From: Thiogranum sp.
Lineage (GTDB): Bacteria > Pseudomonadota > Gammaproteobacteria > DSM-19610
Direction: 5' to 3'
DNA: 37,686 bases
Assembly (NCBI GenBank): GCA_030148915.1
Contig: JASBSN010000060.1
Span: 1 to 37,686 of the forward strand
Shown: positions 34,634 to 37,686 of the stretch, in pieces
How the letters are laid out: each line of letters opens with the position of its first letter
Numbering within the stretch: the first letter of the stretch is position 1
Notes under the pieces: generated by a model
The model's input: the letters and a program-made list of their open reading frames with translations, nothing else
The model's database searches: none
What the model was told of the DNA's origin: nothing
Translations under genes and position numbers: made by a program

Positions 34634-34689
34634 TCGTCACAAACTCATCACAGAAGTTAAACCTTCCCGTCAACTGCGTGTTTTATAAA
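34634..34689 (+). promoter_or_regulatory. PHO-box-like 11-nt periodic array with -10 box upstream of nuclease gene
   Basis: Direct units repeat every 11 nt: TCGTCAC (34634), TCATCAC (34645), a poor GTTAAAC (34656) and CCGTCAA (34667). PhoB recognises 7-bp CTGTCAT-like direct repeats spaced by 4 bp, and TATAAA (34684-34689) starts 10 nt after the last unit, the spacing seen in PhoB-activated promoters. Match to consensus is partial. The downstream gene is a secreted nuclease, a classical phosphate-starvation function. Confidence 0.4.
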
Positions 34690-34719: not shown

Positions 34720-34765
34720 AACTCTGATCAATTCGTCATACCGGCGTAGGCCGGTATCCAGAGTT
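34720..34765. repeat. REP-like element: hairpin nested in a second inverted repeat
   Basis: ATACCGGC (34738-34745) and GCCGGTAT (34750-34757) form a perfect 8-bp hairpin around GTAG. This is nested inside AACTCTG (34720-34726) and CAGAGTT (34759-34765), a 7-bp perfect inverted repeat. The core, TCATACCGGCGTAGGCCGG, is the kind of short dispersed palindrome common in proteobacterial intergenic DNA. Only one copy occurs in the window. Confidence 0.6.
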
Positions 34766-34816: not shown

Positions 34817-37686
34817 ATGAAACGGATGTTGACCCGGGTGCCGGCGGTTATATCGGCGGTTTTTATTCTGCAGGCTTATGCTTGTGCCGCCACTGACTTG
34901 TATCTATCGGAGTACATTGAAGGCAGCAGCTATAACAAAGCGCTTGAGGTCTACAACGACACCGGCGCCAGCGTGGATTTGTCGGCGTATGAAGTTCAAT
35001 TTTACTTTAACGGCAGCACGCTCCCGGGACGCACCCTGAACTTAACGGGCACGGTGGCGCCGGGCGATGTGTTTGTTCTCAGCCACGTCAAGGCCGATGC
35101 TGCGATTCTGGCCCAAGCCGACCAGACCGGCGACGGCAGTTGGTTTAACGGTGACGACGCCGTGGTGCTGCTGAACGGCGGGGCGATCATCGATGTCATC
35201 GGCCAGATCGGCGTAGATCCGGGCGCGCAGTGGGGCAGCGGTGCGACCAGCACGCAGAATAACACCCTGCGGCGCCTGAGCGCCGTTACCGGCGGCGACG
35301 TCAATGCCTATAACGCGTTCGATCCCGCGCTTGAATGGGAGGGGTTTGCAGAGGACACCTTTGACGGGCTCGGTGCGCACACCAGCGATAGCGCCCCGCC
35401 GGCGCCGCCTGCGGCCGCTCAATTGTTGATCAACGAGGTGGACGCCGATACCGCCGGCGCGGATAGCGCCGAATTTGTTGAGCTGTATGACGGTGGCGTG
35501 GGTAACCAGGATCTTAGCGGTAAGGTATTGGTTCTGTATAACGGCAATGGCGATAGTGTCTACGCGGCCTACGATCTGGATGGCTACAGCACCGATGCTT
35601 CCGGCTATTTCGTCTTGGGTAACGCGGCGGTGCCGGGGGTGGATGCGGTGATCGCCGACGGGGTGCTGCAAAACGGTGCCGACGCGGTGGCCCTGTATCA
35701 GGCGAATGGCGTCGACTTCCCCAATGGTGCGCCGCTTTCATTGTCGAACCTGGTCGATGCCGTCGTTTACGACACCAACGATGCCGACGACGCCGGTCTG
35801 TTACCGCTGCTCAATGCCAATGAGCCGCAACTGAACGAACACGGCAATGGCAACAAGGATGTTCATTCCAACCAGCGCTGCGCCAACGGCGCGGGTGGTG
35901 CGCGCAATACCGCCGGCTTCGTGCAGGCGCCGGCGACACCGGCCCAGGCCAATGCCTGTAGCGCCGTGACCGCCTGTGGATCACCGGCCAACCTGATCCA
36001 CGCGATTCAGGGCAATGCCGCCGACAGCCCGATGTTAAACCAACCGGCTACGGTCGAGGCAGTGGTGGTGGGCGATTTTCAAAGCACGACAGCGGGGCTG
36101 GGCGGATTTTTTGTGCAGGAAGAGGCGGCTGATACCGATACTGATGCGAACACCTCGGAAGGTTTGTTTATTCACGACAATGGGTTTGGCGTTGATGTCG
36201 CCGTGGGTGATCTGGTGCGTGTCAGCGGTACGGTCGGCGAGGCTTCCGGGCTGACGGAACTCAATGCGCTGAGTGCGATCGAACGGTGCGCTTCGGGCAG
36301 TACGCCGGCGGCGACCGACCTCTCCCTGCCTTTCGCCAGTGCCACCGATCTGGAACGCTATGAGGGCATGCTGGTTCATCTGCCGCAGACGCTCAGCGTG
36401 ACCGAAAACTATAATCTGGGCCGATACGGCGAAGTCGTGGTGTCGAGCGGTGGGCGGCTGTACACGCCGACCAACATGGTCGCACCGGGCGCCGCGGCTA
36501 TCGCGCAGCAGGCGGCCAACGACCTCAATCGTCTGATCGTTGACGACAGCAACCTCACTCAAAACGCCGATCCGATCGTCTATCCGGCGCCGGGCCTGAG
36601 CGCGTTCAACACACTGCGCAGTGGCGACACCCTCACCGGCCTGACCGGCGTGGTTGGTTACGCCGCCAACGCTTATAGAATACACCCGACCCTTGTTCCG
36701 CAGTTTGTGGCCAATAATCCGCGCCGCGGCTCGCCGCCGCTCGCGGCCGCCGGTTCTCTGCGAGTGGCGAGTTTCAATGTATTGAACTACTTCAACGGCG
36801 ATGGTCAGGGCGGCGGTTTTCCCACCAGTCGCGGCGCCGATACTCTCGGTGAGTTCACCCGCCAGCGGGATAAGATTATTGCCGCCATCAGCGCCATGGA
36901 CGCGGACATTATCGGTCTAATGGAGTTGGAGAACGACGGCTACGGGCCCGCCAGCGCCATTGAGGATCTGGTCAAGGGGCTGAATGCGGCAGCCCCGACC
37001 GGCACCAGCTACAACGCCATCAATCCCGGGGTGGCGAAAATCGGCACGGATGCGATAACAGTGGGCCTGATCTACCGTAATGAAACGGTGCAGGCGGTGG
37101 GTAACACCGCCATCCTCGATGCTTCCGTCGACCCACGTTTCAACGACCAGAAAAACCGCCCGACCCTGGCGCAAGCCTTTATGGAAAAAGCCAGCGGCGC
37201 GCGTTTGACCGTGGCGGTCAACCATCTCAAGTCAAAAGGCTCGAGCTGTGCCAGCATCGGTGACCCGGACACCGGCGACGGACAGGGCAATTGCAACTTG
37301 ACGCGCACCAGCGCCGCTCAAGCCCTCGTCGACTGGCTGGCGCGCGACCCGGCGGGCAGCAACGACGGCGACGTGCTGATCATCGGCGACCTTAACGCTT
37401 ACGCCAAGGAAGATCCTGTCAGCGCCATTCTGGCGGCCAATTACACCAATCTGATCAGCACGCATGTTGGAGCCGGGGCCTATTCTTATGGCTTCAAGGG
37501 TCAGTTTGGTAACCTCGACCACGCCCTGGCCAACGCGAGTCTCGGCGCCCAGGTGGTGGCCGTGGCCGATTGGGCGATCAACGCCGATGAGCCGCGTGTG
37601 CTGGACTACAACGAAGAGTATAAGTCAGCCAACCAGTTGATTAATCTCTACAATGCCGATGCCTATCGCGCATCGGACCATGATCC
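34817..37686 (+). CDS. Secreted ExeM/NucH-type nuclease with two lamin-tail domains (truncated by window end)
   Basis: The reading frame from ATG 34817 is open to the window edge (956 codons). A signal peptide (cleavage near YACAATDL) is followed by a lamin-tail domain (about 25-150, TDLYLSEYIEGSSYNKALEVYN), a second one (about 200-320, QLLINEVDADTAGADSAEFV), an OB-fold-like region (about 385-480) and an endonuclease/exonuclease/phosphatase domain from about 648 (LRVASFNVLNYF). Catalytic motifs are GLMELEND (Glu703), IIGDLNAYAKED (near 855) and SDHD (953-956), where the window ends. Relatives (ExeM, NucH, Xds) degrade extracellular DNA for nutrients or biofilm turnover. The 280-nt upstream region holds a REP-like repeat and a PHO-box-like array. 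Confidence 0.92.
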   Translation, partial: MKRMLTRVPAVISAVFILQAYACAATDLYLSEYIEGSSYNKALEVYNDTGASVDLSAYEVQFYFNGSTLPGRTLNLTGTVAPGDVFVLSHVKADAAILAQADQTGDGSWFNGDDAVVLLNGGAIIDVIGQIGVDPGAQWGSGATSTQNNTLRRLSAVTGGDVNAYNAFDPALEWEGFAEDTFDGLGAHTSDSAPPAPPAAAQLLINEVDADTAGADSAEFVELYDGGVGNQDLSGKVLVLYNGNGDSVYAAYDLDGYSTDASGYFVLGNAAVPGVDAVIADGVLQNGADAVALYQANGVDFPNGAPLSLSNLVDAVVYDTNDADDAGLLPLLNANEPQLNEHGNGNKDVHSNQRCANGAGGARNTAGFVQAPATPAQANACSAVTACGSPANLIHAIQGNAADSPMLNQPATVEAVVVGDFQSTTAGLGGFFVQEEAADTDTDANTSEGLFIHDNGFGVDVAVGDLVRVSGTVGEASGLTELNALSAIERCASGSTPAATDLSLPFASATDLERYEGMLVHLPQTLSVTENYNLGRYGEVVVSSGGRLYTPTNMVAPGAAAIAQQAANDLNRLIVDDSNLTQNADPIVYPAPGLSAFNTLRSGDTLTGLTGVVGYAANAYRIHPTLVPQFVANNPRRGSPPLAAAGSLRVASFNVLNYFNGDGQGGGFPTSRGADTLGEFTRQRDKIIAAISAMDADIIGLMELENDGYGPASAIEDLVKGLNAAAPTGTSYNAINPGVAKIGTDAITVGLIYRNETVQAVGNTAILDASVDPRFNDQKNRPTLAQAFMEKASGARLTVAVNHLKSKGSSCASIGDPDTGDGQGNCNLTRTSAAQALVDWLARDPAGSNDGDVLIIGDLNAYAKEDPVSAILAANYTNLISTHVGAGAYSYGFKGQFGNLDHALANASLGAQVVAVADWAINADEPRVLDYNEEYKSANQLINLYNADAYRASDHD

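Follow-up and report, generated by a model that had tools for sequence, protein, structure and literature searches.

The window analysed here is the whole 37,686-nt stretch of a Thiogranum sp. contig (JASBSN010000060.1, assembly GCA_030148915.1). It ends within a nuclease gene, and the intergenic region between purL and this gene carries a regular array of short direct repeats followed by a hexamer resembling a -10 element. The features of this part of the window are listed below, with unit scores from the PhoB matrix described further on.

34634–34644, + strand: putative Pho-box unit 1, TCGTCACAAAC; strong, matrix score 10.4
34645–34655, + strand: putative Pho-box unit 2, TCATCACAGAA; score 4.5; units 1 and 2 form the upstream, stronger 22-nt box
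34656–34666, + strand: putative Pho-box unit 3, GTTAAACCTTC; weak, score -5.1
34667–34677, + strand: putative Pho-box unit 4, CCGTCAACTGC; score -2.5; occupies the position of a -35 element
34684–34689, + strand: putative -10 element TATAAA; 10 nt after the last 7-mer, as in the pst and phoB promoters of the genus
34734–34762, + strand: inverted-repeat element, CGTCATACCGGC...GCCGGTATCCAG; dispersed family, within the predicted nuclease leader; probably incidental
34817–37686, + strand: LTD-containing ExeM/NucH-family nuclease; signal-peptide-like N-terminal stretch (by eye); truncated by the contig end

The nuclease frame comprises 956 codons in the window and joins an N-terminal lamin-tail domain (also present in Xds and ExeM) to a C-terminal Exo_endo_phos domain. 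It scored 659 bits against the ExeM/NucH model NF033681 (cut-off 300), in agreement with the earlier note, which had placed the gene in the extracellular, Xds-like family; secretion itself is predicted. Against the ExeM-GG model NF033680 it reached 421.6 bits, below the cut-off of 1300. Contig C98 shares 141 identical bases with the window end and supplies the last ten codons (PVVVELSLTP) and the stop; the C terminus read from this contig showed no anchor.

Positions 34634–34677 hold four 7-mers, TCGTCAC (34634–34640), TCATCAC (34645–34651), GTTAAAC (34656–34662) and CCGTCAA (34667–34673), at exact 11-nt steps, with a gap of ten bases between CCGTCAA and TATAAA. The arrangement described in the earlier note, three recognizable units and a weak one followed at 10 nt by the hexamer, was thus confirmed by reading the sequence. 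The array starts 97 bases past the purL stop and 183 nt ahead of the nuclease ATG. It shows two properties expected of Pho boxes, tandem direct repeats with an 11-nt period and a fixed distance from the last unit to the -10 element (10 nt, matching the pst and phoB promoters selected for the matrix). As had also been observed, the units fit the consensus only partly (scores 10.4, 4.5, -5.1 and -2.5): the lineage Pho-box consensus is matched by the four units together and by the upstream pair, but not by the downstream pair alone, and the promoter-proximal units 3 and 4 score below zero, neither being callable by itself. The weak unit 3 has parallels in the low-scoring third unit of Escherichia coli pstS and in weak middle units before two homologues of the nuclease (L043 and L048, see below). 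A generic sigma-70 scan of the array region detected no promoter, in line with an activator-dependent promoter that lacks a -35 box, and strict patterns applied to the own genome missed the window site because units 2 and 3 deviate from YGTMAY. A plasmid search using the upstream region as query gave no match. In 443 kb of own-genome DNA, the inverted repeat at 34734–34762 has eight copies (≤3 mismatches to a degenerate pattern), which makes it part of a dispersed family; in the predicted fold of the leader it appears as a hairpin (z -1.99; 6/200 shuffles fold equally well).

The genome that carries the array also encodes PhoB and PhoR. On contig C55, phoB, phoR, a pstS-family gene, two permease genes, pstB and phoU lie in one cluster. 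The PhoB model scored 344 bits (cut-off 296.2), PhoR, PstS, PstA, PstB and PhoU likewise exceeded their curated cut-offs, and PstC fell just below its own (194.6 vs 196.45). The pstS and phoB promoters of this genome read CTGTCACACAA CTGTAATATTT with TAGACT and TCGTCATACAA CCGTAACATTT with TGTACT, and in both the hexamer begins ten bases past the last 7-mer, which is the spacing of the window array. The same spacing recurs before the genome's own Porin_O_P-family gene, where a four-unit array (TCGTCACAAAA TCGTAACTGGC CCGTCATAGTT CAGTAATACAT CCGTAA TACGCT; L166 1500–1555, C29 near 23258) begins 107 nt before the ATG. This array came from a consensus pattern rather than a genome-wide matrix scan and did not enter the matrix; the pattern gave 25 matches vs 13 for its reversed control, so that about half are expected by chance, and the sites inspected were those of pst, phoB and five others. 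Strong two-unit Pho boxes were also seen at L173 1500–1533 (C83 near 3493), with a correctly spaced CAGACT and no convincing gene directly downstream, possibly marking a small RNA or a missed gene, and at L171 1500–1533 (C57 near 6526), with TAGGCT and then a 69-residue open frame. At C54:1301–1338, TGTAATGATTGTGTCAT occurs twice, inverted and four bases apart, beside a response-regulator gene.

The PhoB matrix was built from 27 chosen genus promoters (12 pst, kept from 26 match rows at ≥77% identity, and 15 phoB), all of which (27/27) have two consecutive units fitting the core consensus at 10/10 positions. The phoB locus L155 offered two sites of equal quality, of which one was used; the -10 hexamer there is poor. 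The 54 units of these sites formed the first matrix, and the same promoters supplied a -10 matrix; the later scans (pooled-matrix and shuffle/homologue tests) used a generic -10 matrix of textbook frequencies. As a positive control, the 54-unit matrix recovered a two-unit box with a -10 element in the phoB promoter of 16/16 nuclease-bearing genomes (0/200 shuffles in 15 genomes, 1/200 in one). These 16 promoters (32 further units) were afterwards pooled with the 27 into a 43-promoter matrix, which served the 443-kb and cross-genome locus rankings. The own-genome background, taken on both strands, was 443 kb out of 3.22 Mb and contained the pst-phoB stretch as well as the remainder of the window. 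Results from both kinds of matrix had been seen before the pooled 11-nt unit matrix was chosen over position-specific ones; the latter, built for 22 nt and 34 nt, place the site lower (per-position p 8e-5 and 3.3e-4) because they are bound to pst/phoB details.

Scoring with a PhoB matrix from the genome's own pstS/phoA promoters had been proposed in the earlier note; with pst and phoB promoters of the lineage, the array passes with 27 as well as with 43 promoters. Using the 54-unit matrix, the score of four units plus -10 was reached at 0/769,282 positions in 386 kb of own-genome DNA; using the pooled matrix, it was reached at 1/884,234 positions (443 kb, both strands), namely the pstS promoter. 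Only that promoter scored as high among 57,778 intergenic positions, which rejects the possibility that the array is no better than random intergenic DNA. For two units without the -10 element, 4/885,202 positions scored as high, three of them in the pstS/phoB promoters; two units plus -10 (33/885,202) and three units plus -10 (9/884,718) were less exceptional. When the 280-nt intergenic region was shuffled 1000 times with dinucleotides preserved, no shuffle reached the four-unit score, with or without -10; among the shorter forms, two units were matched in 2 shuffles, two plus -10 in 48, three units in 4 and three plus -10 in 5. With period 11, the best four-unit sum in the region was +7.2, whereas periods 8–10 and 12–15 gave no more than -14.2. 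The signal is the upstream pair together with the regular phasing, and the downstream pair is weak. At this level, matrix rank, period and -10 spacing all support the earlier proposal that the geometry fits tandem PhoB binding.

Among 16 other genomes of the genus, 12 had no nuclease match and four had weak matches only (best 5.2e-7), and at E 1e-50 the own genome alone matched among 20 in the family. Footprinting within the genus was therefore impossible, and more distant homologues were used instead, for which 46 of 80 loci were scanned (24 proteobacterial and 22 others; L068 had no usable start). The two closest nucleases found (L042 and L043, 71% and 69% identity over the best segment) are preceded by four and three units, respectively, with TATAGA or TACAAT ten bases past the last 7-mer. 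In these forms (four plus -10 for L042, three plus -10 for L043), 0/1000 shuffles each scored as high; the L042 array in its two- and three-unit forms was matched by between 33 and 110 shuffles per 1000, and the L043 array as two units by 261/1000. Three-unit arrays also precede the nucleases of Aliikangiella (L048, with a poor hexamer, TTTTTT) and of MAG locus L057. PhoB exceeded the cut-off in all four genomes, and the homologue units include TGTCA and TGTAA forms. Local alignments of the upstream 280 nt with the window were no better than shuffles for L042, L043, L048 and L057 (score reached by 47, 182, 42 and 158 of 200 shuffles), so these arrays are not plain remnants of similar DNA.

Across the scanned loci, the best of three forms had a shuffle fraction ≤0.01 at 8/24 proteobacterial and 3/21 other loci, so that the shuffle-fraction test alone yields false positives. 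In 9/16 genomes with a PhoB hit, the top-ranked site of the whole locus in at least one of the three forms lay within 250 nt upstream of the nuclease; in the remaining 7/16, the best site lay elsewhere. Among genomes without a PhoB hit, the proportion was 1/8 (L046). This contrast is modest (Fisher p 0.019 with Gammaproteobacteria only, 0.079 with L046). The 24-genome comparison leaves out L075, whose class was not named, and includes L046, which is from Persicitalea, a member of the Bacteroidota, and was added after scoring well. PhoB exceeded the cut-off in 15/16 of the PhoB-hit genomes (that of L079 fell below), and absence is taken from the lack of a hit at 1e-75 in assemblies of unspecified completeness. 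Gene starts are uncertain or hexamers poor in several of the nine (L056, L064, L074 and L106), so the weight is carried by L042, L043, L048 and L057. Upstream of two cyanobacterial nucleases, L065 and L071, the best three-unit sites (shuffle fractions 0.067 and 0.017) resemble the SphR boxes published for nucH.

The two relatives whose purL matches best (83%) have msrP 62 to 63 nt past purL. On C98, the counterpart gene is identified by NCBIfam as MsrP (463 bits vs a cut-off of 207), and the relatives' short purL-msrP spacer aligns with the end part of C98 just before msrP, downstream of the nuclease. This alignment and the purL/msrP adjacency define array and nuclease as a block between purL and msrP that is absent from the two relatives. 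The purL-nuclease-msrP join rests on contig overlap and synteny, and the data do not firmly separate an insertion in this genome from a loss in the relatives. The nuclease occupies this place in 1/17 genus genomes, that of the window. Thirteen purL-downstream spacers were scored from the 15 relatives with a purL hit (msrP was not recognised in one); they reached at most -6.6 for four units plus -10, vs 12.7 here, and at best 11.2 for two units (L223), vs 14.8 here. In the purL-msrP spacers of L219, L220, L222, L224 and L225, tandem GTGA-type repeats at 11-nt steps precede msrP, perhaps as a site of another OmpR-family regulator. In each of the two closest relatives, another Exo_endo_phos protein is encoded 2 to 3 kb from purL (712 residues at L231 2548–4686 and 658 at L232 2641–4617); it stays below the ExeM/NucH cut-off (139 and 140 vs 300 bits). 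The top two-unit Pho-like site of each stretch scanned falls near the start of the Exo_endo_phos gene; the two proteins are orthologous, and this counts as one observation, not two.

A PhoB operator before the nuclease gene is well supported by the sequence. We estimate a probability of about 0.86 that the array is a tandem PhoB operator of two 22-nt Pho boxes, standing in place of the -35 element of the nuclease promoter and placing the gene under phosphate-starvation control; most probably, a strong and a weak PhoB box together replace the -35 element. Under phosphate starvation, PhoR would phosphorylate PhoB, and PhoB dimers would bind head to tail, at the strong upstream box first and then cooperatively at the weak downstream box. 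Binding of PhoB is reportedly hierarchical, as the title of one paper has it. Bound PhoB would hold sigma-70 RNA polymerase on TATAAA, and the nuclease, once secreted as predicted, would break extracellular DNA into nucleotides feeding phosphate uptake. The bacterium thus probably digests outside DNA for phosphate, a nutritional purpose that we infer.

The array could instead be the operator of another OmpR-family regulator (CopR/HprR-like, CpxR-like or CreB), which we consider improbable. The genome holds eight OmpR-type DNA-binding domains, and of three non-PhoB regulators scanned, one exceeded a CopR-type cut-off, one was nearest CpxR but below the cut-off, and the third, a partial frame, had no match at 1e-60. 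CreB recognizes TTCAC direct repeats of similar period; the upstream pair of the window can be read as GTCAC-N6-ATCAC, and 11-nt TGTGA repeats precede msrP in several genus relatives, with L223 approaching the window in the two-unit form (11.2 vs 14.8). Against such a regulator, the window units fit the pst/phoB matrix and spacing, the homologue arrays show TGTCA and TGTAA forms, and the relatives' spacers stay at or below -6.6 in the four-unit plus -10 form, in which the window scores 12.7. Still less credible is a chance likeness of an A/T-rich intergenic stretch to a Pho array: although two of the four units score below zero and the array was picked by eye out of 37.7 kb, four units at this score arose in 0/1000 shuffles, the site ranks just under pstS in its own genome, the signal appears at period 11 only, and comparable arrays stand before homologues.

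It is just as hard to credit that PhoB binds here but leaves the gene uncontrolled, or represses it. According to PMC10294691, many E. coli PhoB sites, mostly intragenic, seem transcriptionally inert, and PhoB activates or represses depending on position. The window site, however, is intergenic and keeps the 10-nt spacing to the -10 element found in the pstS and phoB promoters; the same paper describes spacing requirements between Pho box and core promoter and says that strict spacing is supported by structural models (PMC10294691).

Control of the nuclease by PhoB would assign an uncharacterised enzyme to the Pho regulon, a prediction made from sequence alone, and would suggest that Gammaproteobacteria beyond Vibrio and Shewanella probably use extracellular DNA as a phosphate source. 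A genus-level PhoB matrix is provided. As a more tentative proposal, which we think rather doubtful, array and nuclease might form one transferable phosphate-scavenging cassette carrying its own PhoB operator: the block is confined to this one of 17 genus genomes, and the two closest relatives carry a different Exo_endo_phos protein with a Pho-like site of its own. The cyanobacterial nucH paper (PMC1906773) lowers the odds slightly. If the cassette reading were true, different secreted nucleases would have been wired to PhoB repeatedly as units, also across further Gammaproteobacteria. PhoB control of xds and SphR control of nucH are already in print, so array and nuclease belong to known biology; nothing is overturned and no new kind of system is opened. 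The analysis contributes a quantified test, the parallel in the genome's own porin promoter, the arrays before distant homologues and the placement in a purL-msrP block.

Among known promoters, that of E. coli K-12 pstS has, like the window, four 11-nt units with a low-scoring third and a hexamer (TATTTT) ten nt after the last 7-mer. Its units score higher (14.8, 14.3, 5.2 and 5.9 vs 10.4, 4.5, -5.1 and -2.5 here), and it drives a transporter subunit, whereas the window gene encodes a nuclease. For the gene product, a close likeness is to xds of Vibrio cholerae, whose induction via PhoB is reported in PMC6746945 and PMC12351708 and bears out the earlier statement that Xds-type nucleases are phosphate-starvation genes elsewhere. 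Both are secreted (here by prediction) and have an N-terminal lamin-tail domain, going by the published description of Xds; PhoB control is experimental for xds and predicted for the window nuclease. Expression of exeM in Shewanella oneidensis rises in phosphate starvation, and ExeM shares the LTD and the endonuclease/exonuclease/phosphatase domain; it differs in a hydrophobic C-terminal stretch, four arginines and a putative GG processing site (PMC6085458), where the window protein ends PVVVELSLTP. The same paper states that ExeM was undetected in supernatants even in low phosphate and that EndA seems to be the phosphate-supply nuclease (PMC6085458). Phosphate-responsive exoproteins of Pseudomonas include putative nucleases, according to PMC5082522. 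For cyanobacterial nucH, a position behind three to four tandem SphR boxes has been predicted, and for that of PCC6803 reported (PMC1906773). It resembles the window in being an ExeM/NucH-type gene of the Pho regulon, cyanobacterial NucH being placed in NF033681 by name, with boxes at 11-nt steps (8 bp plus 3-bp spacers); the boxes follow the CTTAACCT consensus and are bound by SphR, not PhoB (PMC1906773).
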